40,692 bases of DNA from Bacteriovoracaceae bacterium (GTDB lineage: Bacteria; Bdellovibrionota; Bacteriovoracia; Bacteriovoracales; Bacteriovoracaceae). Under the pieces are notes generated by a model, which did no database searches, was not told the origin of the DNA, and saw only the letters and a program-made list of their open reading frames with translations. The DNA is taken from assembly GCA_947461175.1 (NCBI GenBank), contig CANHIY010000010.1:1-40692 (forward strand), read 5' to 3'. Positions 20,716 to 39,744 of the stretch are shown one piece after another. Every line of letters starts with the position of its first letter. The stretch's first letter is position 1. The position numbers and the translations under genes are program-made.

Positions 20716-21429
20716 ATGAAAAAAAATCTCTTAGTTTTGTTAATGCTCCTTTTGAGCATGTCCTTGATGGCATCGGAAAAATCACTCTACAATTTTTCAT
20801 GGTTGGATAATGATAAAGAAATTTATGTTCTTCAAAATAGAAAGTTCCGTAAGGATGGTAACTTGTATTTGGGCGCCACCGCTGCTTATAACTTAAGTCA
20901 ACCTTTCCTGGATGCTTTTGGTGGTACAGTTCGAGGAGGATATTTTTTCTCAGAGGATTGGGGATTAGAATTTTTGTATGGTAAAAATTCAAATAAGGAA
21001 AATGACACTGCCAAGGGTGTGAAAGAACAAGGCACTGTTCCCTTTTATAGAAGCATTGATTCTTTCATGGGGGCAACCATCATGTGGTCTCCCTTTTATT
21101 CAAAAATTAATACATTCAATAAAGTCTTTTATTTTGACTGGATGTTTGGTTTGGGAATTGGAAGCATTTCAACGGAAGACAATAGAAATAAGTTTGATAC
21201 AACTGCTACAAATCAAGATGAATTAACAAAAGAAAGCCACATCGGTGCCCTCTGGAATACTGGTTTTAGGTTTTACTTAAATGAAAGTTGGAGTTTGCGG
21301 CTTGATCTTACCGGTCAGGCTTATAAGGCAGACAAAACTAAGAAGACTCAAGCTGCAGCTGAAACAACAAAGGCTACTAAAGTTTACAATAATTACGACT
21401 TAGGCTTGGGGCTAAATTACGCTTTTTAA
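20716..21429 (+). CDS. Outer-membrane beta-barrel protein (GltA/GltB/GltH type)
   Basis: A 237-residue protein with a strong signal peptide (MKKNLLVLLMLLLSMSLMAS). The mature part has alternating amphipathic strands typical of an eight-stranded barrel (GNLYLGATAAYNLS, GGTVRGGYFFSEDWGLEFLY, YFDWMFGLGIGS, LWNTGFRFYLNESWSLRLDL) and ends in NYDLGLGLNYAF, with the aromatic C-terminal residue used for outer-membrane insertion. This pattern resembles the small barrel domain (TIGR04565 type) shared by GltA, GltB and GltH of the Myxococcus gliding complex. A Lys/Thr/Ala-rich insertion (about residues 205-222) probably forms a surface or periplasmic loop. As first gene of the Glt-like operon it is likely the outer-membrane anchor. 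Start ATG has only a weak GAAG site. Confidence 0.78.
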   Translation: MKKNLLVLLMLLLSMSLMASEKSLYNFSWLDNDKEIYVLQNRKFRKDGNLYLGATAAYNLSQPFLDAFGGTVRGGYFFSEDWGLEFLYGKNSNKENDTAKGVKEQGTVPFYRSIDSFMGATIMWSPFYSKINTFNKVFYFDWMFGLGIGSISTEDNRNKFDTTATNQDELTKESHIGALWNTGFRFYLNESWSLRLDLTGQAYKADKTKKTQAAAETTKATKVYNNYDLGLGLNYAF

Positions 21430-21442
21430 TAAAAAGGAGAAC

Positions 21443-22855
21443 ATGATGTTCTCAAAGATATTACTTGTTTCATTATTTTTTATAAAAACTTCCTGGGCTT
21501 CCTATGAAGCTGCAGACAGGGTTTACGGTAGCGGAAGTTTTTCATATTCTGATAACCGACGACTTCTTATTGAGTTGATTAATAGTGGGTATTATTTTTC
21601 AATTATTCCATGGATGAAAGAACACATTGTAAAGACTAATAGAGGCCTTGATAAAGAGCTTGAAGAGGCTTTAGATTTAATGATTTATCACACGGGAGTG
21701 AAGCCCTTTGAGTCTCTCCCCGATGAGATTTTAAAAAAATCAAGATCAGGTAATGTTCGATATATTCTTGCGAAAAGACTTCTTAAGAATAATAAGTCCC
21801 AGGAAGCAATTGAAGAGCTAAATCAAATTTCAGGGGATCACCCATCATTTCCCTTCATATCAAACCTCAAAGCTGTCATCTACTCTGAATTAGGTGATCC
21901 TAAAGAAGCAATAAATCAGTTCAGGGATTGCATCAGGTCTTCTGATCAGAGAATCAAAAAAACTGATTCGATGGTTCTTAAAAATCAATTGCAAACAAAC
22001 AAAGATTATTGCCTCGCTGGAATTGCTCGTTCTTTCTTTGCTTTAAAAGATTTCGAAAAAGCAGAGTTAAGTTATTTAGATATACCAAAAGAGTCATTTG
22101 TATGGCCGGAGATACTTTTTGAGGAAGCTTGGAATAGCTACTATCAAAAGAATTATAATCGTACATTGGGTAAGCTCGTTTCCTACAAAGCACCTGTCTT
22201 TGATTTTATTTTTAAGCCTGAGGCCGAGGTATTGAAAGGTTTAAGTTATCTTAAAATGTGTCTTTATGATGATGCTAGAAAGATCTCGGATGATTTTTAT
22301 AATGAGTTATTAAATCCCTCCAGAGACCTTAGGTCATTTCTGATAAAGAGGGGAAAGGACTATAAGTATTTTTACGAATTAATGTCAGACTTTGAGGATC
22401 AAAAGGCACCACCACTTCCCATCATTGAGAATATTCTTAAATCTGTCAGTAAGGATGCCGCTTATATTGAAATGAAAAGTGCACTCCTGATGTCCATTGA
22501 GGAATATAAAAAGTTAGAGAAATTACGGGAGTCCCGGATGAATATTGATCTTGTAAAAAACATCAGGACAGTTGTTGATGAATACAGAACAATGATAGGA
22601 GCCTATGTCCGTTCAAGTTTAGTTTCTAAATATTCAGTTTTGTATTCTGCCTTTCAGGACATGAGCTACATCAAGCTCGAGGTGTTGGCGCAAAGGAAGG
22701 AGAAGCTTTATCAGTCAGATTTCATTCCAAATAAAAAGCGTGGAGATGTTCAATACATTGAAAGAAATGATAAGCAATATTTTTGGATTTTTAACGGCGA
22801 ATTTTGGGCAGATGAACTTGGTGACTATGTATTTGCGTTGAGGTCTGAATGCTAA
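21443..22855 (+). CDS. Periplasmic TPR-type protein, Glt complex component
   Basis: A 470-residue protein with signal peptide (MMFSKILLVSLFFIKTSWA) and helical repeats of TPR type, for example NVRYILAKRLLKNNKSQEAI, ISNLKAVIYSELGDPKEAI, YCLAGIARSFFALKDFEKAE and LFEEAWNSYYQKNYNRTL. The C-terminal 150 residues are a charged helical region ending in an aromatic block (FWIFNGEFWADELGDYVF), which I recall as typical of a class of delta-proteobacterial TPR proteins including GltC-like ones; this is memory, not a search. AAGGAG lies six bases before the ATG and the next gene overlaps its end by seven bases. Expected to be periplasmic and part of the same complex as its neighbours. Confidence 0.78.
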   Translation: MMFSKILLVSLFFIKTSWASYEAADRVYGSGSFSYSDNRRLLIELINSGYYFSIIPWMKEHIVKTNRGLDKELEEALDLMIYHTGVKPFESLPDEILKKSRSGNVRYILAKRLLKNNKSQEAIEELNQISGDHPSFPFISNLKAVIYSELGDPKEAINQFRDCIRSSDQRIKKTDSMVLKNQLQTNKDYCLAGIARSFFALKDFEKAELSYLDIPKESFVWPEILFEEAWNSYYQKNYNRTLGKLVSYKAPVFDFIFKPEAEVLKGLSYLKMCLYDDARKISDDFYNELLNPSRDLRSFLIKRGKDYKYFYELMSDFEDQKAPPLPIIENILKSVSKDAAYIEMKSALLMSIEEYKKLEKLRESRMNIDLVKNIRTVVDEYRTMIGAYVRSSLVSKYSVLYSAFQDMSYIKLEVLAQRKEKLYQSDFIPNKKRGDVQYIERNDKQYFWIFNGEFWADELGDYVFALRSEC

Positions 22856-25716
22856 ATTTTATCTCGTTAATAGTTTTATTTATAAATATAGCTTTTGCTG
22901 AGCGCCTAAATCTTGACCAGAGAAGAAGTAAGATTATTTCAATTGTTGATGAGGAACTGGCAGAAGTGACAAGGCTCGCAAGGCAACAAAATCAAAAGGT
23001 TCCTGATACATTGTTTAGAATCTCAGAACTGTATCTTGAAAAGGCAAGGATTTACCGCGAAACTGAGAATGAAAAATATCTCTCTATCAAACCTGAAGCA
23101 AGGACTACCCTTAATAAGAAAGATTTTTTTAAATATTCAGAAAAGTTGTTTCTGGAGGCTAATGAGTCTGCATTACTTGTTGCCAAGAAGTTCCCCAACT
23201 ACAAAGAGATTGGCGATGTTTATTACATCCTTGCGTTTAACTACAAAGAACTAGGAAATGATGAACTTGCAAAAAAATACTTCAAGCTAGCATCAGGAAA
23301 AGTAAAAGACCCTCAGATTGCAAACAAATCTAAGGTCGCCCTTGCTGACTATTATTTAAATGAAAAGAATTATCAAGAAGCGATTCCTTATTACGAATCA
23401 TCTTTAAAAAATATGGATGATAAATGGTGGACTAAAGATGCCTTTAACTTGGCCTGGTGTTATTACAGGGTTAAAAGTTTCAATTCAGCAATTAATTTGA
23501 TGAAAGATGTTCATAAGAAATCTGGTGGTAAGTTTGTAGACATGAGAGGACAAGTAGAGCGAGACATAGGCATTTTCTATGTAGATGCAAACCGGATTGG
23601 AGAAGGGATCGATTTTTTTGAAAAACTTGGTATTAATTATACAGATCAATTTATTCAAATTTCTACGAAGCTTACCTCTCAAGGAAGATTCGATCTTGCT
23701 GATAGCTTGTTGAAGCGTCTTCATAGTATTGAAAAAAATAAGACCAAAAAGATACAAGTTTTGCTTGCAGAGTTATATCTTTATGACAAGTTTAACAAAG
23801 AAGACGAGCACATTCTTGTTTCTACTGAACTGGTGGACTCTCATTTAAAGTCACCTTTTGAAAAATCTGACCTTGAAAAACTCATTTATCAGGTCAACAA
23901 GAAAGCAGCTGAAATTCAAAAAACTCTCGCCTCTGATATTTATAAGAGTGTACCGAAAATTCAAAAGAAAAAAGCTAAGCTCGCCATGGCTTATTTTGAA
24001 CTTTCTGGAAAGCTAGACCCAGATCAGAGGTCTGAGAAAATATTTTTTCAGGGCGAAACAGCTTTCGTTGCGGGTAATTTTGAAGATGCACTTAAGTATT
24101 ATTTGAAAGCTTTTGACTCGGCAAGGTCTGGTCAGCAGAGTGAAGTCATGAAAAAAAGTTCTGAGGGAATGCTCGCTTGTATCGGAAATCCCGATTTTCC
24201 GCAATCCACTGTCTCGCGCTATTACATTCCAGTTTACTCCAGATACTTGTTGGTTGATTCCAGATCCCAAAGGGCATCTTCAATTTATATAAAACTTTTT
24301 AATTCTCAGTTTGATGCTAAAGATATCTCTGGAGCAGAGGAAACACTCATAAGTTTTGCAAAATCATTCCCCTCTGAATCACTTAATCAAGAAGGTATGC
24401 TCGCCAAAATTATGGAGCATTTTAGAAAATTGAAAGATTACGATAATGTGAAGAAATATGTAAGAAAAATTAATTCAGGTGAATTTAAAGTTTCTACTAA
24501 ATATGCAGACGCTCTCAAAGTTCTTCAAACTAAAATTCAAATAGAGGGTGTTCAGAAATCATTAGAAAAGGGTGAGAAAGATATTGCGCTTAAAGGTTAT
24601 CACCAGATATACGCTTCAAATGAAACTACCCCAAAAGCTAAGGTAAATGCTGCCTATAACCTTGCTACGCTGTATTTTGAAAAAGGTGACACTGAAAATT
24701 GTTACAAATGGATTCAAACAGCATTAAAAGAAATGGATCATCCGGAGGTGGTGAGATTTGCTGATTCTATCCTCAGTATGGCAGCAGGGCTATTTTTAAA
24801 ACAAAAGTTTTTTGAATCATCTGATATCTCTTTTAGTGTTTTAACTAAGTTATGTAGGGAAAATTCTTCAAATAAAGACATTGCTTTTAAAAATGCAGTC
24901 TTTATTTCGCTGGCAAATGAAGACTTGGACAAAGCTTTAGAGGTCAAAAATACAGCAAAATTATGTTCTATTCCAGAGTCAGTAGTCTCAGAAGTTTCGG
25001 TAGAAATTTTGAAAGAGTTATCACTAACGAAGAGATGGGAGGTCTTTCAAGAAACGATTAAAGAGCTTGAAGTTAATTCAAGAAATCACCCTAAGCTCAT
25101 TTCTCCCCTAGAGGATCTTAGAAAGGAGTTAGTTTTAATCGGTGACTCTGATGAGGCGATGAAAATTTTTAATAAACAAAATAATTTCTATGAAACGGCA
25201 AGATCTCAGAAATTGGATATACCGGTTGATGCCCTTGATCTTATCGCTGAACGAATGATTCAGATGGCACGAGATAAAAAGAAAAAGATCGATAGCATTC
25301 AACTTATGTTTCCTGAAGAAAATTTTAACAATCAAATGAGAAACGTTCTGCAAATGATGGATCAACTGGCCAGTGATATTAACCAAATTCAAAAGATAGG
25401 TTCTGGTAAAGGAGTTGTTCAAGGTTATAAACTTATCATTGATACTTACGAAGGTTTTTCTGAAAAGCTTAAGAATTTTAGCCCACCGGATAAACAATCA
25501 GATTATGTTGAGAGTTTTAAAAAAGCGATGGCTGACATTTATGTGCCACTTCTTGATAATGCAAAGAAGCAAAGATCAGAAATCCGAAAACTTATTCTGG
25601 AAAATAAAATTTTGTCACCGCTGAATTCTGAAATTCTCATTCATCAAACCGTCATACCACAGCAGTACATTATGACGAAAGGTTCAGTTCTCATGGATAG
25701 AGGAGGGAAAAGATGA
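22849..25716 (+). CDS. Large periplasmic TPR protein (GltD/AgmU-like)
   Basis: A 955-residue protein with signal peptide (MLNFISLIVLFINIAFA) followed by a long solenoid of TPR-like helix pairs. Clear repeats include IGDVYYILAFNYKELGNDELA, VALADYYLNEKNYQEAIPYY, AFNLAWCYYRVKSFNSAI and AAYNLATLYFEKGDTENCY (each quoted only in part). The C-terminal 180 residues become a helical bundle or coiled coil. No enzyme motif is present. Size, location and position directly before a TPR lipoprotein, a tiny secreted protein and a GltG-like protein correspond to AgmU (GltD) of Myxococcus, a periplasmic scaffold of the gliding machine. GAGGT precedes the ATG; the stop overlaps the next ATG in ATGA. Confidence 0.78.
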   Translation: MLNFISLIVLFINIAFAERLNLDQRRSKIISIVDEELAEVTRLARQQNQKVPDTLFRISELYLEKARIYRETENEKYLSIKPEARTTLNKKDFFKYSEKLFLEANESALLVAKKFPNYKEIGDVYYILAFNYKELGNDELAKKYFKLASGKVKDPQIANKSKVALADYYLNEKNYQEAIPYYESSLKNMDDKWWTKDAFNLAWCYYRVKSFNSAINLMKDVHKKSGGKFVDMRGQVERDIGIFYVDANRIGEGIDFFEKLGINYTDQFIQISTKLTSQGRFDLADSLLKRLHSIEKNKTKKIQVLLAELYLYDKFNKEDEHILVSTELVDSHLKSPFEKSDLEKLIYQVNKKAAEIQKTLASDIYKSVPKIQKKKAKLAMAYFELSGKLDPDQRSEKIFFQGETAFVAGNFEDALKYYLKAFDSARSGQQSEVMKKSSEGMLACIGNPDFPQSTVSRYYIPVYSRYLLVDSRSQRASSIYIKLFNSQFDAKDISGAEETLISFAKSFPSESLNQEGMLAKIMEHFRKLKDYDNVKKYVRKINSGEFKVSTKYADALKVLQTKIQIEGVQKSLEKGEKDIALKGYHQIYASNETTPKAKVNAAYNLATLYFEKGDTENCYKWIQTALKEMDHPEVVRFADSILSMAAGLFLKQKFFESSDISFSVLTKLCRENSSNKDIAFKNAVFISLANEDLDKALEVKNTAKLCSIPESVVSEVSVEILKELSLTKRWEVFQETIKELEVNSRNHPKLISPLEDLRKELVLIGDSDEAMKIFNKQNNFYETARSQKLDIPVDALDLIAERMIQMARDKKKKIDSIQLMFPEENFNNQMRNVLQMMDQLASDINQIQKIGSGKGVVQGYKLIIDTYEGFSEKLKNFSPPDKQSDYVESFKKAMADIYVPLLDNAKKQRSEIRKLILENKILSPLNSEILIHQTVIPQQYIMTKGSVLMDRGGKR

Positions 25717-26603
25717 AAACTATTCTCATTCTTTTTTTTCTGATTTCATGCTCAACTCATAAAAAAACTATGACCCAGGATCTTAGCAAAAATGTTTCTT
25801 CTAATAGTTTTAAGAAAGAAGTTTCACTGAACAACAATAATGTTCAGGATTTTTATGCTCATCGATTAAAAACCATGAGTCCTGCATTAGAAGATGAGAC
25901 TATTGACCGGTTAAACCCTTCTGAATTAAAAAGTATGAAACCCACTTCGGATCCTCTTCTTGATATTTCATTAAAGTGTCAAAAGAAAGATTTTGAAAAT
26001 GCTTTTCATTTAGTATCTTCTCTTTTTAATCGATATCAAAAAACAGCACCTTATTGGAACCAAGTAGCGAATTGTCACCTCCTAAAAGGTTCTTATCGGA
26101 AAGCATTACTTTTTTATAATAAGGCTTTGGAGGTTGCTCCCAACTATGTCCCGGCACTTAATAATATTGGGGTTATGTACTCAAAACAGGGACTAGATCA
26201 AAAAGCGTTAGTTGCTTTTGATAGAGCGAATAAAATTTCCAAGTTTTCAAAAACACCAAGATATAATCTTTCTAGATTATATCTAAGTTATGGTTTAACT
26301 GAGATTGCGATTCCTATTTTTCAAAGTCTCCTGAATTATTCTCCCACTGATGTTGACCTTCTAAATTCGTTGGGAACTGCTTATCTCATCCAATCTGACC
26401 TGGAAAAATCGATGTCCTATTTAAATAAAATCCCAAAAAATTATTTGGTTAATCCTGAAATCGGCTTGAACTTAAGTCTACTCTACAAACGAATGGGTAA
26501 ATTAAATGAAGCGAAAAAAGTTTTTGATTCTATCATTTACCCGAAAGATGAAAGAATAAAAAAATACTTTGAATTTGTTAAAGACCAGATTGGGGAAACA
26601 TGA
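25713..26603 (+). CDS. TPR lipoprotein (GltE/AglT-like)
   Basis: A 296-residue lipoprotein. MKTILILFFLISCSTH contains the lipobox LISC with the lipid cysteine at residue 13; Ser at +2 would favour the outer membrane under the E. coli rule. A polar linker of about 80 residues leads to four or five TPRs, among them YRKALLFYNKALEVAPNYVP, LNNIGVMYSKQGLDQKALVA and LNSLGTAYLIQSDLEKSMSY. Position between the large TPR protein and the small CglF-like protein matches aglT (gltE) in Myxococcus. Translation is coupled at both ends: ATGA overlaps join it to the genes before and after. The likely role is to tether the periplasmic TPR scaffold to the outer membrane. Confidence 0.8.
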   Translation: MKTILILFFLISCSTHKKTMTQDLSKNVSSNSFKKEVSLNNNNVQDFYAHRLKTMSPALEDETIDRLNPSELKSMKPTSDPLLDISLKCQKKDFENAFHLVSSLFNRYQKTAPYWNQVANCHLLKGSYRKALLFYNKALEVAPNYVPALNNIGVMYSKQGLDQKALVAFDRANKISKFSKTPRYNLSRLYLSYGLTEIAIPIFQSLLNYSPTDVDLLNSLGTAYLIQSDLEKSMSYLNKIPKNYLVNPEIGLNLSLLYKRMGKLNEAKKVFDSIIYPKDERIKKYFEFVKDQIGET

Positions 26604-26851
26604 ATATTTTAATCTTATCAATTTCTTTTTTTTTCGTACTAAACGTTTCTGCTGAAGCACAGAAAAACGTTAGATACGAATACAAAAAGTTTGAACGGTT
26701 TGATTTTGATGAGATAGGTGTAGAAGGTGAGGCTGGTTCACCTGGAGATATCTCCATTTCCCCAAGGATGAGGAAAGAATTTCGTAACAAATTACCAGAG
26801 AAAGATAATTTTAATCGAGAAATGAAAAAAGCCATAGACGGCATACGTTAG
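26600..26851 (+). CDS. Small secreted protein, CglF/GltF-like
   Basis: An 83-residue protein with a signal peptide (MNILILSISFFFVLNVSAEA); only about 63 residues remain after cleavage. The mature part goes YEYKKFERFDFDEIGVEGEA, a P-G-D turn, a basic stretch and NFNREMKKAIDGI. The sequence 'hydrophobic/acidic strand - V-x-G - P - basic - N-F-x-x-E-M - D' agrees with what I remember of CglF, the small outer-membrane gliding protein of myxobacteria, and the position just before the GltG-like gene agrees too. Family membership is an inference from memory. The ATG overlaps the preceding stop (ATGA) and the next gene starts nine bases after its stop, so it is firmly inside the operon. Confidence 0.72.
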   Translation: MNILILSISFFFVLNVSAEAQKNVRYEYKKFERFDFDEIGVEGEAGSPGDISISPRMRKEFRNKLPEKDNFNREMKKAIDGIR

Positions 26852-26860
26852 GGGATTGAA

Positions 26861-28858
26861 GTGGAAACAACTAAAACAAAACAAAATGAGATGTTTAAAA
26901 TTAGACCCGTCACTCAATCAACTCCTTCAAGTCTAGGCGTTTTTGGAAGGGGCAGAATCTTGATCGGCAGATCTGAGAGCTGTGATTACGTGATTAATAG
27001 TGAAACAGTTTCAGCTATTCACGCTGTGATGGAGATATTTAATGACCGTGCTGTTATTTATGACATGAATTCCACAAATGGAACTTATGTTAATAACGAA
27101 AAAGTTGTTGTAAAAGAATTTAAACACGGGTCAACCTTCAGAATTTCTGAACTAGAATTTGAATTTGGACTTTATCTACCAGATTCAGAATTGCCACCTG
27201 TCTTAGATTCACTTGATCCAGTTAAGGGAAGTGCCTCAGTCATAAACATTGTGAAGTCACTACCTGATTCTGCACCAAGTGTTACTAATGCCCTTCCAAC
27301 AATAGTTTATCCTTTGGCATCCGACCCTAAGGCGGATTTTAGTGAATACATTTTTGAAGATAAGGATGAGCTTTATCCCATATTTAATTATGATCATTCA
27401 AAGCAAGCAGTAGAAGTTATTGTGTTATTTAAAGACCAAATTTTCAGTGTTGATTACCTGCCCCAGTCAAAAGAACTTTATAAAATTGCAGGCGTTCAAA
27501 AAGATACTTTTTCCATTGAATTTCCCTATTTAGGAAAAACTGAAACATTTCCCTTTATTCAGGCCGGTTCAACATCGGCAACGATCTATACATTGCCAGG
27601 ATTTGATGTTTTCCTTTTGAGTGATACAAAAAAACACACAGGTCACGTGGGTGCAGACATTCAAATCCAAAACCAGGACATTCTCCGTCTCCAAAAAGGT
27701 GACCTACAAATTTTTGTAAGACATGTACAAGCTCCACCTAAAGTAGCACACGCACCCATCCTGAAAAGAGACCCTGAATTTAGAAAATATCTTGCTCTTT
27801 TTCTCATGTTTGTCTTTTTTTTAACCATGGGGCTAAACCTGGTGGAAGTTCCCAAGGATGAAAGAAAAGATGAACTGGCTCCAGAGCGGCTAGCAAAAAT
27901 TTTGTATAAGCAAAAACTGACAGTTTCTGAAAACCCACTTATCGAAAAGACTGAAAAAAAGGAAAATGTGGCTCAAAAAGCTCCTGACAAAGTTGCTGTT
28001 AAAAAAAATGAAGAGAAGGATCAACGCTCTGATGTTAAAAACCCAGACTTGGTGGAAACTAAGGATCAAAGCAAAAAACCTGATCCCGGAAAACTCAATG
28101 CTAATGAAAAGAAAATCGTAAAGCAAGGGACTCAACCAGTAACCAAACCTAATAATGAAGTTGTTAAGAGTTCTCCTACTGCAAAAAGCACGGATAATGC
28201 TAAGACTGCAAAAAGTCCTACGGCCCTTTCTCAGTATCAAGCAAAGACAATGGGACACGTGGAGGTTTATAAGTCAGCCGATTTTAAAAGTTCTTTGAGT
28301 TCTTTAGTTGCTAAAGGTGGATCCCTTTCTGGAATCCAGACAAATTCATTGTCTGGGTCAAGCTCCGATTTAATTGGTGCCAGTGGCGGTATATCTTCAG
28401 GCACAGGTCAAATTAAGACTGCCCAGATTACCACCAATCAAGGAAGTCTTATTGGTGCCGCAACAGGAGTTTTAGGTGATTCAAAAGGTGCAGAGGGTCT
28501 CTCTTCCAAAAAAGCAATTTATACAGCAGGCATACCTTCTGAAACAGTGGTTCTTGGTTCTATGGATCCTGATGTGATCAGAAGACGTTTAATGGAATAT
28601 CTACCTCAATTCAGAAGTTGTTATCAAAAAGAACTTGAGTCAAGAGGAACCGACATCAATGGAATGATCAAGTTAAACTTCGTCATTGGTTCTACAGGCC
28701 ATGTGGCAAAATCAGGACTTGATGGCTCAACGCCTCTGCCTAGAGATGTGAGTAGTTGTGTATTGAGTGTTCTAAGAGGAATTACTTTCCCAGAGCCAAT
28801 GGGTGGTGGAACGGTTGAGGTGAAACAGCCAATGAATTTTCAACCTAAGAGGATCTAG
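26861..28858 (+). CDS. gltG: FHA-TM-TonB-like protein, GltG-like (AgmX/PglI C-terminal domain)
   Basis: A 665-residue inner-membrane protein. Residues 28-100 are an FHA domain with GRSESCDYVI, SAIHAVME and MNSTNGTYVN, the Arg, Ser-x-x-His and Asn of a phosphothreonine reader. A second cytoplasmic region follows, then one membrane helix near 309-330 (LALFLMFVFFLTMGLNLVEV). Next come a Lys/Pro-rich periplasmic spacer (330-460) and a Gly/Ser-rich segment (about 490-540). The last 105 residues are a TonB-like domain with two cysteines (FRSCYQ, VSSCVL), KLNFVIGSTGHV and ITFPEP, which matches the AgmX/PglI tail family. GTG 26861 is the start: GGGGA lies five bases upstream, while the ATG at 26891 has no such site. 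Likely the transducer coupling the motor to the envelope. Confidence 0.85.
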   Translation: METTKTKQNEMFKIRPVTQSTPSSLGVFGRGRILIGRSESCDYVINSETVSAIHAVMEIFNDRAVIYDMNSTNGTYVNNEKVVVKEFKHGSTFRISELEFEFGLYLPDSELPPVLDSLDPVKGSASVINIVKSLPDSAPSVTNALPTIVYPLASDPKADFSEYIFEDKDELYPIFNYDHSKQAVEVIVLFKDQIFSVDYLPQSKELYKIAGVQKDTFSIEFPYLGKTETFPFIQAGSTSATIYTLPGFDVFLLSDTKKHTGHVGADIQIQNQDILRLQKGDLQIFVRHVQAPPKVAHAPILKRDPEFRKYLALFLMFVFFLTMGLNLVEVPKDERKDELAPERLAKILYKQKLTVSENPLIEKTEKKENVAQKAPDKVAVKKNEEKDQRSDVKNPDLVETKDQSKKPDPGKLNANEKKIVKQGTQPVTKPNNEVVKSSPTAKSTDNAKTAKSPTALSQYQAKTMGHVEVYKSADFKSSLSSLVAKGGSLSGIQTNSLSGSSSDLIGASGGISSGTGQIKTAQITTNQGSLIGAATGVLGDSKGAEGLSSKKAIYTAGIPSETVVLGSMDPDVIRRRLMEYLPQFRSCYQKELESRGTDINGMIKLNFVIGSTGHVAKSGLDGSTPLPRDVSSCVLSVLRGITFPEPMGGGTVEVKQPMNFQPKRI

Positions 28859-29367
28859 TTTTCTTTTGTCATCACAACAAACTTAAACTCTTTAAAACCA
28901 GCAGCTGCACAGGTGTACATGACTCTTTTTAGGTAGTTGTATTTTAAGCTCTTATCCACAACCAAGTTGGCCACTCCGGAAAACTTTTTGGCATCAGGTG
29001 AGAGTTTCTCAGAGGCCTTGATCGTTTCTTTGATTTTTATGAGTTCATTAAATAATGGAACAATTCTTCTTCCCCCCTCATCAAAAACTTGAGATTCACT
29101 GGCAGTATCTGAATTCAGGACTTCCACATCATCAACCCAGATTTGAGTTTTAGAGACCTGAATATTAACGCCAAAATTATTTAAAGATTCGGAAGAGGAT
29201 TTTGGAAGCTCAATTCCTTTTGGTACATTGATAATAACACCTGAAGAATTATAACTCTGCAGTAGAAAAACCAGAAGGATAGTAAGAATATCCAAGAGTG
29301 AAGTGATATCTATATCAAACACGGACATTTTTTTTCGACGTGTGAATCTGGATGCTCTTCTTGCCAT
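28855..29367 (-). CDS. ExbD/TolR-family motor protein (AglS/AglQ-like)
   Basis: A 170-residue protein with one N-terminal membrane helix, DIDITSLLDILTILLVFLLQ, in which the Asp of LLD is the proton-carrying residue of TolR/ExbD/MotB-like proteins, and a periplasmic domain beginning near residue 40 that ends with NLVVDKSLKYNYLKRVMYTC, the family's usual D-K-x-x-x-Y-x-x-V/L-x-x-V block. A basic start (MARRASRFTRRKK) marks the cytoplasmic side. It lies eight bases after the other ExbD gene. Its stop codon overlaps that of the convergent GltG-like gene within the palindrome CTAG. Together with the TolQ-like protein it should form a proton-driven stator. Confidence 0.88.
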   Translation of the reverse strand: MARRASRFTRRKKMSVFDIDITSLLDILTILLVFLLQSYNSSGVIINVPKGIELPKSSSESLNNFGVNIQVSKTQIWVDDVEVLNSDTASESQVFDEGGRRIVPLFNELIKIKETIKASEKLSPDAKKFSGVANLVVDKSLKYNYLKRVMYTCAAAGFKEFKFVVMTKEN

Positions 29368-29375
29368 AAAAAATC

Positions 29376-29906
29376 CTAGCTCATTAAGTTACTGAAAATG
29401 ATTTTATCGAACAGTTGTTTAACTTTTTCGTCTATACCGTCTTTATTCTTTTTAAAAATGGCATCATCCGTCTTATTTATCATCCTGACTGCATCCATGA
29501 TGTTAACAATCTCTTCGTAGGTCAAATCTCCTACGGGCTCGAAGATAATTGAGTCTTCGTCTAGGTTTTGTTTTTTTTGATCCATTAAAGCAGCATGTAA
29601 TTCTTCATAATTAAAGGAGCCGTCTGCTTGCCTTTGAAATGTTTGAATAACCTCAGAAGGTATTCCTTTAAGGAGAGTGAGTTCGTTAAGGTCAAGCTTA
29701 AGGGTCAGGGCCAGGGGATCTTTTTTATCTTTTGGAGGTTCTTCTTCAGAAACGATAGGGACATCACTTCCTATTTCATAAATTTTTAGAAAGCTCGCAG
29801 ACATGAGAAGAAAAAAAATGAAAATAAAGACCGAGTCCATGATAGGAACGAGATTTAATTTTTCTTCAGGCTTCTTCCGCTTGCGGCTGGTAGGAATTTT
29901 TAGCAT
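29376..29906 (-). CDS. ExbD/TolR-family motor protein, second paralogue (AglQ/AglS-like)
   Basis: A 176-residue protein: basic cytoplasmic tail (SRKRKKPEEK), LNLVPIMDSVFIFIFFLLMS with the motor Asp in 'P-I-M-D', then an acidic Pro/Lys linker (EEEPPKDKKDP) and a periplasmic domain in which FEPVGDLTYEEIVNIMDAVR is the conserved block near the C-terminus. It is clearly different in sequence from the neighbouring ExbD protein, so the motor probably contains both, as AglQ and AglS do in Myxococcus. It begins ten bases after the TolQ-like gene ends. Which of the two corresponds to AglQ and which to AglS cannot be settled here. Confidence 0.88.
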   Translation of the reverse strand: MLKIPTSRKRKKPEEKLNLVPIMDSVFIFIFFLLMSASFLKIYEIGSDVPIVSEEEPPKDKKDPLALTLKLDLNELTLLKGIPSEVIQTFQRQADGSFNYEELHAALMDQKKQNLDEDSIIFEPVGDLTYEEIVNIMDAVRMINKTDDAIFKKNKDGIDEKVKQLFDKIIFSNLMS

Positions 29907-29916
29907 AAGCTATTCC

Positions 29917-30558
29917 TTACTCGTCGATGGCTTTTTTCGTTCCAAGTAAATCTTGAAGTTTTACTGAGAATTCATCAATCTCATTAACTATTTTTTCTGA
30001 TTTAGCCATAAGAAAAGCATGAATCATCATGATTGTAATAGCGGAGAAAAGTCCCAAGGCTGTAGTATTCATGGCAACTGCAATACCTTTTGCTAAAACT
30101 TCAGCTTTCTGACTTGGATCAGCTGCAGCGACAGCTGAGAATGACTGAATTAATCCCTGGATTGTACCCAGTAGTCCAAATAGAGTGGATAGATTCGCCG
30201 CTAACTGCAGGTAAGCAATTCTTTGTTCGATTTTAGGGATCACCTCAAGTGCCGTGGCATCAATCGCATTTTGAACCTGTTCAGGAGACTGGTTCGCGCG
30301 CTTAAGACCACTTTTAAGAACTTTCGGTAGAGCGGCAGTTGAACCAGAACAAACTCTGATCGCACCTTGTATGTCATTCGAAAGGATATAGCGTTGAAGC
30401 TCGTTCATGAATGATGGTCCATCAACATCAAGAGTGTAGGTGAGTTTTTTGAAACGCTCCATGGCGACGGCCAGAGCAAAGGCCCAAACTCCAAGGATGA
30501 CATACATAAATATACCACCCTCAACAATAAATCTAAGTGTCCATTGAACCAATTCCAT
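29917..30558 (-). CDS. MotA/TolQ/ExbB-family motor protein (AglR-like)
   Basis: A 213-residue inner-membrane protein with three membrane segments (about residues 12-30, 110-135 and 155-180). The second and third carry the family signature: NLSTLFGLLGTIQGLIQSF and GIAVAMNTTALGLFSAITIM, with the conserved Thr residues that line the proton path. It heads a three-gene operon with two ExbD-type proteins, which is the AglR-AglQ-AglS composition rather than the TonB/ExbB/ExbD arrangement for iron uptake. AAGGGGA lies seven bases before the ATG. Given the adjacent GltG-like gene, a gliding or envelope-transport motor is more likely than a Tol-Pal system (no tolA, tolB or pal nearby). Confidence 0.9.
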   Translation of the reverse strand: MELVQWTLRFIVEGGIFMYVILGVWAFALAVAMERFKKLTYTLDVDGPSFMNELQRYILSNDIQGAIRVCSGSTAALPKVLKSGLKRANQSPEQVQNAIDATALEVIPKIEQRIAYLQLAANLSTLFGLLGTIQGLIQSFSAVAAADPSQKAEVLAKGIAVAMNTTALGLFSAITIMMIHAFLMAKSEKIVNEIDEFSVKLQDLLGTKKAIDE

Positions 30559-30694: not shown

Positions 30695-31102
30695 TTAGAA
30701 GAAGCAGGAAATGTCTTTGTCTTTATAACGGACTAAGACAGTTTTAATTCTTCCCTCATCATCTATTTTCATTTTGATGGAATTATCTTCTGAGTGATAC
30801 TCAAAATCACGGACTTCAGACCTATCTTTACCAAGGCTGAAAAGATTATTAAGCCAAATGTCTTTTTCAAAGTTTATGCTGTCTAGGCCAATTTGAGCTC
30901 TGACGTTGTAGGCTGGATTTCCAAATGAGTCTTCCTCAAGGAGATTTTTCACTTTTTCTATTTTTATCCTGCAGGATGTTTCCTTGTTCTTAATAAAGAC
31001 TCTCGTTTTTAAAGAACCCTTCAAAACCATGGTGCCTTTAATTGTATGAGAAAGAACATTTAATGAAAGGCAAGAGAGTAGGATAAAGGTTACTATTTTC
31101 AT
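30695..31102 (-). CDS. Small secreted protein of unknown function
   Basis: A 135-residue protein with signal peptide (MKIVTFILLSCLSLNVLS). The mature part is beta-rich (TIKGTMVLKGSLKTRVFIK, YNVRAQIGLDSINFEKDIWL) and has two cysteines, one near residue 43 and one third from the end, which could form a disulfide joining the ends of a small beta-barrel or sandwich. No family recognised. It starts 14 bases after the protein-glutaminase-like gene and has AGGA before its ATG, so the two are probably one operon. A role as inhibitor, partner or substrate-binding accessory of that enzyme is possible but there is no direct evidence. Confidence 0.65.
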   Translation of the reverse strand: MKIVTFILLSCLSLNVLSHTIKGTMVLKGSLKTRVFIKNKETSCRIKIEKVKNLLEEDSFGNPAYNVRAQIGLDSINFEKDIWLNNLFSLGKDRSEVRDFEYHSEDNSIKMKIDDEGRIKTVLVRYKDKDISCFF

Positions 31103-31116
31103 AAAAATTCCTGATT

Positions 31117-32010
31117 TTAATTTCGGTCAGTATTAAAGCCTTCGTAGATACTTGACCAGTTCCAAAAAGCTTTTCTTGCCAGTTGAAGTTCGCCCAGTGT
31201 CCAGTGGTTTCTTACTTCTCCCCTCACGTCTCGGTCTTCAATGCTTAAAGGATCATAATAATACATGGGAACGCTCATTAGGTAGCAAAGCCTAGACCAC
31301 TGATTCACTTCATACTCGGGATAACTCTTAATCATAGGACAAGTGATATTAGAAGATTTGATGAAGTAATCCTTCCACTCTTTTAGAGGCATTGGCTTAG
31401 TCATGAAAGTGCCGTCCATGACAAATTTTTCTCCATTAACGGTCACCATAGGAGCGACGTGGAACCACCAATCAAACTCCTCAAGGTCAATATATCTCCT
31501 GGTGTAGAAGATAAATATTTTTTCCGACAGAATACCTTGTTGAGACCACATGTCATAGGCCCACATGTGTGCCCTTTTATAACATTGTGAAATGGCCTTA
31601 TCTCCATCATTTAACATGCTGTTAAAGACTTCATTAGCAACCTCAATACTCTTTAAGTCAGTAGGTGCGAATAGTCTGAGTTGATTGTAACGAAAATGAT
31701 TAAGGTCTAAAGTTGTTTGGCTAACTTCACCCTGACTTACAACCCTAATGTTATCTACAATCAATTCATCATCTTGTATGTTGTAATCAAGACGAACAAC
31801 CTTACCAAGGAGAGTATTCAGTTTATTGAGATTTCGGTTGGATTTAAAAGTTTTATAAATTCTTCCATCAGATCCAGAAAGGATGAGGATTCTATTGGAT
31901 TTTTTTGATTCAACGACATTAAAAACTGTGGTGTAAATGCTTTCTGAATGGGCCTGTGCCATGATCGAGATTAAAAAGATGAAGACCGAGCCCCAATGTT
32001 TCAATAACAT
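31117..32010 (-). CDS. Secreted protein-glutaminase-like (protein glutamine deamidase) enzyme
   Basis: A 297-residue secreted protein (signal peptide to about residue 22). The N-terminal 90 residues form a small beta domain. The C-terminal part has the Cys-His-Asp arrangement of the protein-glutaminase family (PF18626, known from Chryseobacterium protein-glutaminase): SQCYKRAHMWAYDM with C143 and the family's 'C-x-x-R-A-H' block, DWWFHVAPMV with H184, and KFVMDGTFM with D199, followed by a Pro and Trp-rich stretch (MPLKEWKDYF). Such enzymes deamidate glutamine side chains in proteins, releasing ammonia. The triad and spacing make the family call fairly strong; the target proteins are unknown. 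AAGG precedes the ATG. Co-transcribed with the small secreted protein downstream. Confidence 0.78.
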   Translation of the reverse strand: MLLKHWGSVFIFLISIMAQAHSESIYTTVFNVVESKKSNRILILSGSDGRIYKTFKSNRNLNKLNTLLGKVVRLDYNIQDDELIVDNIRVVSQGEVSQTTLDLNHFRYNQLRLFAPTDLKSIEVANEVFNSMLNDGDKAISQCYKRAHMWAYDMWSQQGILSEKIFIFYTRRYIDLEEFDWWFHVAPMVTVNGEKFVMDGTFMTKPMPLKEWKDYFIKSSNITCPMIKSYPEYEVNQWSRLCYLMSVPMYYYDPLSIEDRDVRGEVRNHWTLGELQLARKAFWNWSSIYEGFNTDRN

Positions 32011-37803: not shown

Positions 37804-39744
37804 ATGCAATTTTCATTGTTTATCCTTCTTTTGGTTGTGGTTTCTTGTGGTCAGAATCCCCACTTAAAAATAAGGCCCAAGGTAGGGGCACTTGATCGAA
37901 ACATAAATCCCATCACTGTTTCAGCTGAGCTGATCTTAAGAGAGAAGGGGTCTAAAAAAGAGGGTGTGGTAGATTTTGGAAATCTCAAAAAAGGCCAAGT
38001 TCACTCCAGACAACTGGAACTGGTCAACATAGGGCAAATAAACGCAACTGGAATATCAATACCTACGTACATTGACTCCTTTATATTAGAAAATTTAAAC
38101 TGCACTGAAGTTCTGGATAGAGGTCAGTCCTGCGATTTAAATGTTAAAATTAATCCTACAAAAGAAGGGGTTGAGAGCAGTACTTTGATCGTTGGTTATG
38201 ATCCCATTAATGAGAAGCCACAGAAAAATGTAAAATCATTTATTCTTGCTAATGTCCAGGTTGAACCTACGCCCCAAGAAGTAAAGCTAGCTTTTATTCC
38301 TAAGAATTATCCAACTGGATTAATTGTCTTGAAAGACATTCCGTTGTCTGAAAAAAGACGTATTGAATTGGAACTAAGAAATGTTGGTGAAATTGTTGCG
38401 ACGAATCTGCGTTTATCTGAGTTGACCACTCCTTATCGCATGATTAGTACTAATTGTAGTCAAGAACTTTCAGTTGGAGCCTTTTGTTCTCTGGAAATTG
38501 AGTATTCTGCGGATTCTGTTCGCGAGGACTCCCTAACTTTGACGGCTTCTACGAAATTTTCTGACTCCAAGGCCATTCAGGAGATTAAGGCAAATGCTGT
38601 AAAACTTAATCTTCCTGCAAAAATTGAGGTGGTGGATGGAGAAATAAGCCAGGACATTTATGAAATTCTTGGTGTTAAACCTGAATCCCTTTCACCGTTC
38701 CATGAAGTGAGAGGTGTTGATGTTGGCATTCTTACAACGGAACGTCCTATTAGATTCAATTTAAAGCTTAAGAATATTGGAGATAATAAAGCTAAAATAA
38801 CGCAAATTAAGCATCTCGAGACTAACGAGTTTAAATACACGTTGGGAAATTATCCGGGAGAAAAAGGAACCTGCTCATTAGAAATTCAAAAGGGTGATTG
38901 TCACGTTGAGATAATAGTCGCACCAAAAGATATTAGGAATATCTCTGATCTTCTTGAACTTACTTACGAAGATGGAAACGGAAATATTCGAAGATTATCA
39001 ATTCTTTTATTGGCCTCAGTTAGAGAAAAACAACTCATTGCCTGCAAGACCATTTCAGCTCGTTCAAACGCCGAACAAAGGGAAGTTGTTAAAAGATTAA
39101 CATCGTTGAGTGCTTATAAACTCCCTTACAAATTGAATTCAACGGAAACAAATGCCACTCTACAAACACTTTTTAATCTTGAGTCAAATATGACCGTAAG
39201 ATCTCAGAGTGACTTAAGTAATTATGTCATTCCTACAGTAAAGAATGCTATGGTTCAATTCGGTTTTGATATTTCTAAAACTGAACTCTCTAAATACTCA
39301 TCCGCCAAAATTGAGCTGGATATTTTGAAAATTGGCACCGAAGGATCTAAATTTGATACGACTGAGGTTCTTTGTCTAAATGAAAATAGATCGTGTTCAG
39401 GCACCTTTTTTATTGATAGTAATTTTGGTCCTTTGAAGACATCGAATTACAAAATTAATACTCAGCTTTTTTCAGGAGAGCTTTTAAGAAGTGCCAGCGA
39501 AAATCCTGAATCTCTCGATCATGTTTTCTCTTTAAGCGGTAATAAAGGGCTGGTTTCTAAAACTGATAACTATTCCGTTTTTAGGTTAAAAAAGAGAATT
39601 CCATTAAAAGACTTGTTTGGTGACTATACAATCATTTCAGACTTTGGAAATGGATTAAACCTCATTCTTGCCGATGACTCTCTTCTACTGGGTTTACCTA
39701 AGCTGGTGCTTGAAACTGACCAGAATTCCTGCCCGACAGAGTAG
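37804..39744 (+). CDS. Large lipoprotein with repeated ASH/Ig-like beta domains
   Basis: A 646-residue lipoprotein: MQFSLFILLLVVVSCGQN has lipobox VVSC with Cys16. At least three beta-sandwich repeats follow, each with 'V-x-F-G-x-L/I ... L-x-x-x-N-x-G ... C ... G-x-x-C-x-L-x-I/V ... P': residues about 50-145 (VVDFGNLKKGQVHSRQLELV, NCTEVLDRGQSCDLNVKINP), 165-255 (ELRNVGEIVATNLRLSEL, CSQELSVGAFCSLEIEYS) and 295-400 (LKLKNIGDNKAKITQIKHLE, GDCHVEIIVAPKD). This is the pattern of the 'choice-of-anchor D'/ASH family. The last 220 residues are different and unknown. Likely on the outer membrane, in binding or assembly. AAGGA precedes the ATG. Confidence 0.78.
   Translation: MQFSLFILLLVVVSCGQNPHLKIRPKVGALDRNINPITVSAELILREKGSKKEGVVDFGNLKKGQVHSRQLELVNIGQINATGISIPTYIDSFILENLNCTEVLDRGQSCDLNVKINPTKEGVESSTLIVGYDPINEKPQKNVKSFILANVQVEPTPQEVKLAFIPKNYPTGLIVLKDIPLSEKRRIELELRNVGEIVATNLRLSELTTPYRMISTNCSQELSVGAFCSLEIEYSADSVREDSLTLTASTKFSDSKAIQEIKANAVKLNLPAKIEVVDGEISQDIYEILGVKPESLSPFHEVRGVDVGILTTERPIRFNLKLKNIGDNKAKITQIKHLETNEFKYTLGNYPGEKGTCSLEIQKGDCHVEIIVAPKDIRNISDLLELTYEDGNGNIRRLSILLLASVREKQLIACKTISARSNAEQREVVKRLTSLSAYKLPYKLNSTETNATLQTLFNLESNMTVRSQSDLSNYVIPTVKNAMVQFGFDISKTELSKYSSAKIELDILKIGTEGSKFDTTEVLCLNENRSCSGTFFIDSNFGPLKTSNYKINTQLFSGELLRSASENPESLDHVFSLSGNKGLVSKTDNYSVFRLKKRIPLKDLFGDYTIISDFGNGLNLILADDSLLLGLPKLVLETDQNSCPTE

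Follow-up and report, generated by a model that had tools for sequence, protein, structure and literature searches.

Which machine is encoded by nine genes of a Bacteriovoracaceae bacterium in which a set of envelope proteins and a predicted proton motor meet tail to tail? The genes lie at positions 20716-30558 of contig CANHIY010000010.1 (here C10; assembly GCA_947461175.1). The window analyzed here, 40,692 nucleotides, is the whole of this contig, which belongs to a metagenome-assembled genome (MAG) of 3.0 Mb that is about 90% complete. We consider the locus a well-supported new member of the already described Agl-Glt family, in a conserved two-operon layout. Judged from its sequence, it very probably encodes a trans-envelope machine of the Agl-Glt type, in which envelope complexes would be moved for gliding or predation.

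An earlier note on this DNA had described a six-gene operon facing a TolQ-TolR-TolR operon tail to tail, and all nine open reading frames (ORFs) were indeed found intact, six on the forward and three on the reverse strand. The forward genes follow the order outer-membrane barrel, gltC, gltD (a large tetratricopeptide repeat, or TPR, protein), gltE (a TPR lipoprotein), a cglF-like gene, and gltG; the reverse genes are, in coordinate order, aglS-, aglQ-, and aglR-like. Intergenic gaps of -7 to +13 bp in the forward set and of 8 and 10 bp in the reverse set fit an arrangement in two operons, whose TAG stop codons overlap within one CTAG at 28855-28858. The locus is flanked by addAB on one side and by gmhA/trx on the other. 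Since the same nine genes occur in unchanged order in a single-contig genome (locus L042), in Bacteriovorax sp. BSW11_IV (L094), and in Halobacteriovorax marinus (L097), an assembly accident of the MAG can be ruled out.

The motor genes encode an AglR-like channel subunit of the TolQ/ExbB/MotA type (29917-30558; PF01618, 1.6e-26) and two TolR/ExbD-type proteins, AglQ-like (29376-29906; PF02472, 1.9e-12) and AglS-like (28855-29367; PF02472, 2e-14), all on the reverse strand and all over the Pfam cut-offs. Each TolR/ExbD-type protein carries an aspartate in its transmembrane helix: Asp24 of the AglQ-like protein was retained in 14 of 16 sequences, and Asp26 of the AglS-like protein was invariant (17 sequences). 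In a TolQ tree of 63 rows, the AglR of the window fell inside a Glt-linked group of 44 members (Shimodaira-Hasegawa-like approximate likelihood ratio test [SH-aLRT] support of 98), which takes in all four agl motors of Bdellovibrio bacteriovorus HD100. Outside this group lay MotA, ExbB, a short type of ExbB, and Escherichia coli TolQ, whose sequence is consistent with the PDB alignment.

GltG (26861-28858, forward strand; NF033760, 3e-37) combines an FHA domain, a second beta domain, a transmembrane helix, a disordered linker, and a TonB-like C-terminal domain. The FHA domain, which is predicted to be cytoplasmic, spans 26960-27145 (PF00498, 1.3e-15; Foldseek match 3po8 with a target-normalized TM-score [TMt] of 0.85). 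The predicted transmembrane helix (residues 305-327; 27773-27841) lies between the beta domains and the linker, of which about 180 residues are disordered in the model. The C-terminal domain (28562-28843) matches the AgmX/PglI tail family over its cut-off (NF033768, 1.4e-16), contains two invariant cysteines, and is modeled as alpha-beta-beta-alpha-beta. Because the 50 Foldseek matches listed for GltG were mostly to FHA domains, the tip was compared with TonB C termini using HHalign, which returned a probability of 89%, versus 0.1% for a control region. The scores of GltG against NF033760 (128 bits) and of GltC against NF033756 (108 bits) are below the Myxococcus-level cut-offs; this is expected, since the published homologues in HD100 Bd0828-0838 also stay far under them (GltG, 236 of 650 bits; GltC, 187 of 450 bits).

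The five genes upstream of gltG, all on the forward strand, complete the structural operon. The first (20716-21429) encodes an outer-membrane beta-barrel in a GltA/B-like position, with matches over cut-off to PF13505 and to the myxobacterial outer-membrane barrel family TIGR04565 (OMP_myx_plus; 5.6e-32); it is the only barrel gene of the locus and may correspond to either GltA or GltB. Between its signal peptide and the barrel domain lies a conserved segment, LYNFSWLDNDKEIYVLQNRKFRK (residues 24-46; 20785-20853), and across 107 barrels the stretch LYxFSWLDPDKEVYVLQN forms one of the two blocks with the highest conservation (mean of 0.72 for residues 21-40). TonB boxes in GltA/B were proposed as contacts of GltG by Mignot and Nollmann (PMC5349195), and we infer that this segment could be a candidate TonB-box-like contact for GltG.

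The second gene (21443-22855), which had been described before as a TPR protein, is one and can now be assigned to GltC (NF033756, 7.2e-31, residues 119-470). Its model (predicted local distance difference test score [pLDDT] of 86.5) shows a TPR superhelix with a long helix at the C-terminal end and a short tail that is highly conserved; a Foldseek search with this model returned generic TPR matches only. The tail contains the motif FxGExWxDExGxY (22790-22828), which is diagnostic of Glt loci and whose residues F, G, W, D, E, G, and Y are invariant (57 sequences). The GltD-like protein (22849-25716), a large, putatively periplasmic TPR protein of 955 amino acids, was assigned by TPR matches in Pfam and by position; furthermore, a purpose-built profile trained on members of the phylum matched the protein in the GltD position of HD100 Bd0828-0838 with 316.7 bits (1.2e-95). 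It is followed by a GltE-like TPR lipoprotein (25713-26603; TPR matches, position, and a lipobox, ISCS) and a CglF/GltF-like secreted protein of 83 amino acids (26600-26851), which matches NF033764 over nearly its full length (2e-4) and whose gene is kept at the same place in related loci. The TPR, FHA, and barrel proteins thus matched Glt families instead of an unrelated system. Together with the position of the channel subunit among the HD100 agl motors instead of Tol-Pal or ExbBD, these profile matches support the proposal of the earlier note that the locus is a compact Glt/Agl machine with motor and core side by side.

How does the locus compare with known systems? The agl/glt systems of Bdellovibrio have already been described (Luciano 2011). 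In HD100 (genome G083), Agl-type motors were found at 0.40, 0.79, 1.40, and 2.28 Mb, in agreement with the positions expected for Bd0412-0420, Bd0828-0838, Bd1473-1483, and Bd2368-2377. Bd0828-0838 comprises, all on the forward strand, barrel, barrel, gltC, gltD, gltE, cglF, gltG, aglR, aglQ, and aglS. It shares with the window locus the order from barrel to gltG, the aglR-Q-S set, and the TolQ clade, and HD100 likewise has no GltJ (NF033761) match over cut-off. However, it is a single operon with two barrels and the motor downstream, whereas the window locus has one barrel and a convergent motor, and its flanks differ from the addAB and gmhA/trx genes found here. A further HD100 locus at 3.49 Mb (L156, 7755-11076) consists of barrel-gltC-cglF-barrel without a motor.

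The Agl-Glt system of Myxococcus xanthus has homologues of GltC, D, E, F, and G and of AglR, Q, and S in common with the window and, as here, MglA elsewhere in the genome; unlike the single locus of the window, it is spread over three clusters (G1, G2, and M1) and includes GltH, I, J, and K (PMC3169522). The Nfs spore-coat complex of M. xanthus is a paralogous structural set that is also driven by an Agl motor (PMC3858216), but this motor is encoded elsewhere, whereas the window links structural and motor genes. With Tol-Pal and ExbBD-TonB, the locus shares a TolQR-class proton channel and a TonB-like arm predicted to reach the outer membrane; in contrast to these systems, it has two TolR per TolQ, an FHA domain on the arm, a Glt scaffold, and a separate clade in the tree. 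By homology, the window locus contains the Agl-Glt core features GltC, GltD, GltG, and AglRQS, as well as the expanded Bdellovibrio-type set with CglF/GltF and a GltA/B-type barrel.

A profile search over about 100 loci revealed two Glt designs in the Bacteriovoracales. Type A, to which the window locus belongs, has the order addA-barrel-gltC-gltD-gltE-cglF-gltG, tail to tail with aglS-aglQ-aglR, followed by gmhA and trx; type B has barrel-gltC-cglF-aglR-aglQ-aglS-gltD-gltE-gltG on one strand. The motors of both types are neighbors in the TolQ tree (support of 93). gltG and the motor are convergent in all 36 type-A loci in which both are visible; a same-strand arrangement was seen in 14 loci, which belong to type B or to other designs. 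The type-A layout is shared by three more distant Bdellovibrionota MAGs (L125, L137, and L139) and is therefore probably an old, conserved variant. An earlier suggestion that the locus might be minimal or ancestral therefore holds only in part; its gene set equals the published expanded core of Bdellovibrio. Among the matches listed, GltC identity to the closest type-A loci is about 62-65%. The pattern FxGExWxDExGxY picked up GltC relatives in at least 506 stretches, and a GltC match was obtained in all 158 Bdellovibrionota genomes searched (completeness of at least 95%), nearly always far below 1e-20. The presence of GltC in every genome searched suggests that the Bdellovibrionota have the Agl-Glt machine as a trait of the whole phylum.

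The space between the two type-A operons ranges from the 4-bp overlap in this genome to 2.9 kb; extra genes occupy it in some species. Two loci have small lipoproteins or membrane-anchored proteins consisting only of an AgmX/PglI tail between gltG and the motor (L071:17283-17663 and L043:3056-3568). At the same place, Halobacteriovorax-like genomes carry a conserved, probable membrane protein of 145-181 amino acids (L097:17598-18122, L092:19836-20357, L094, L091, L082, and L099), of which the L097 copy matched no known family.

Closer examination of the type-A sites showed that six of them (L084, L087, L088, L089, L096, and L111) extend from the barrel to cglF and have neither gltG nor motor; in this one Bacteriovorax clade, both are absent. 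Such joint absence supports the view that gltG and the motor are one unit. A type-A or type-B AglR was not found elsewhere in the three genomes of this clade that were searched; two of the three retain a Bd0412-type motor, with a short ExbB-ExbD-tail set used by their type-B locus. The clade offers a natural test of the role of the scaffold without its motor. Tentatively, and with more doubt than assent, type A could be a distinct second Agl-Glt design specialized for a predation step, with this one clade having lost motor and GltG and running on another energizer or none. gltG and the motor are also lacking at L157 and L160, where an ORF of 156-163 amino acids fills the gap (no family match for that of L157). 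In the type-B-like loci L158, L159, and L161, the place of AglR/Q/S is taken by one ExbB, one ExbD, and a short protein of about 350 amino acids with a GltG tail.

Furthermore, we analyzed the rest of the genome for related components. A second complete Glt locus is present on contig C2 (L010:5651-15434); it is of type B, with its own AglR/Q/S in the middle of a single operon. MglA is encoded on contig C5 (1374-1955) and shows 69% identity to a Myxococcus MglA sequence. The gene lies downstream of recR and of a divergent MglB-like ORF that was not recognized by Pfam or NCBIfam, an arrangement reported for B. marinus (PMC3983030); this MglA keeps Gly21, where that of B. bacteriovorus has a serine (PMC3983030). 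Both GltJ and the polarity proteins had been noted as missing from the window. A search of the genome for GltJ gave no match to NF033761, but the polarity switch is not missing, as MglA with its MglB-like neighbor is present on C5. Searches for CglB (NF033757) and CglE gave no match and were uninformative, since the controls were equally silent.

In the mechanism that we propose, AglR, AglQ, and AglS would together make up an inner-membrane proton channel, with the transmembrane aspartates of AglQ and AglS, one in each, as likely proton carriers. The channel would drive GltG, which is predicted to sit in the inner membrane with its FHA domain in the cytoplasm, a single transmembrane helix, and a TonB-like tip on a long flexible linker. 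This tip probably crosses the cell wall and may act on the outer-membrane barrel via the conserved segment behind its signal peptide, while GltC, GltD, the lipoprotein GltE, and CglF would provide the periplasmic scaffold. As a net effect, outer-membrane complexes would be pulled or moved along the cell. In Myxococcus, AglRQS is proton driven, AglR binds GltG, and GltG and GltJ are TonB-like (PMC3169522, PMC5349195). In Bdellovibrio, a mutant in aglS (Bd0838) neither attaches to prey nor kills it (PMC6561027), aglR (Bd1481) and Bd1483 mutants are poor at biofilm clearing (PMC2277423), and expression of Bd0411-0421 peaks early inside prey and that of Bd2368-2377 at exit (PMC12546842). By analogy with these motor, mutant, and expression data, the locus most likely encodes an Agl-Glt machine that serves gliding or a step of predation, that is, one used for surface gliding and/or for prey attachment, entry, or exit.

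The same machine might also have another job and, like Nfs, move or anchor a surface polymer or act only inside prey, without gliding. We regard this as possible, although on balance unlikely. Myxococcus Agl motors power the Nfs sporulation complex as well (PMC3858216), a division of labor is suggested by the two Glt loci here and the four operons of HD100, the HD100 clusters peak at different stages of predation (PMC12546842), and GltJ, which is required for gliding of Myxococcus, was not found. However, the genome encodes MglA, a regulator of gliding and predation, and B. bacteriovorus, which has the same gene set, does glide, also without GltH, I, J, and K, which are reported absent from Bdellovibrio (PMC3169522).

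Doubts about the motor itself carry far less weight. Its placement next to the structural operon would be coincidental if it served another Glt complex, such as that on C2. Opposite strands imply separate transcription of the two operons, and one Myxococcus motor serves two complexes (PMC3858216), yet we consider this improbable: the C2 locus has its own motor, the junction is kept across the Bacteriovoracales and in the three more distant MAGs, and where the motor is absent, gltG is absent too. Even less credible is that it is an ordinary Tol-Pal or ExbBD-TonB energizer merely located beside the structural genes. By sequence, the best PDB matches of AglR are TolQ and ExbB, as for any member of the family, and its NCBIfam tolQ match is far under cut-off. 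Against such an identity, which was rejected by the TolQ tree, also stand the conserved neighborhood, the joint loss of motor and gltG, and separate ExbB-ExbD-TonB sets on contigs C115 and C141, the former with a TonB-dependent receptor nearby. Pfam and NCBIfam scans of the locus proteins revealed neither TolB nor Pal, and the locus contains no TonB-dependent receptor.

Some points weigh against the assignment as an Agl-Glt machine. The identity of GltE relies mainly on position and lipobox, since its match to the GltE family NF033758 (4.8e-4) is weaker than those to generic TPR models, and GltJ was not found in this genome of about 90% completeness. The TolQ tree was built quickly and has SH-aLRT values as its only support, and its link to Myxococcus runs via HD100 and NCBIfam models, the tree containing no Myxococcus AglR.

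Literature searches on gliding in Bacteriovorax yielded nothing specific to this locus, and a 2026 review describes the Bdellovibrio gliding machinery as unidentified (PMC13104615). The type-A locus occurs throughout the Bacteriovoracales, with a fixed gene order and the motor attached. We regard it as a clear candidate for gliding machinery, and it may be easier to dissect than the four Bdellovibrio operons.

Other genes of the window were also inspected. Behind the motor, positions 30695-32010 encode a secreted protein of 135 amino acids and a secreted Gln_deamidase_2 protein (PF18626, 9.8e-15); both occur in this genus, and more distantly related type-A loci mostly lack them. At 37804-39744, a protein of 646 amino acids contains a HYDIN/CFA65/VesB-like Ig domain (PF22544, 6.7e-15).

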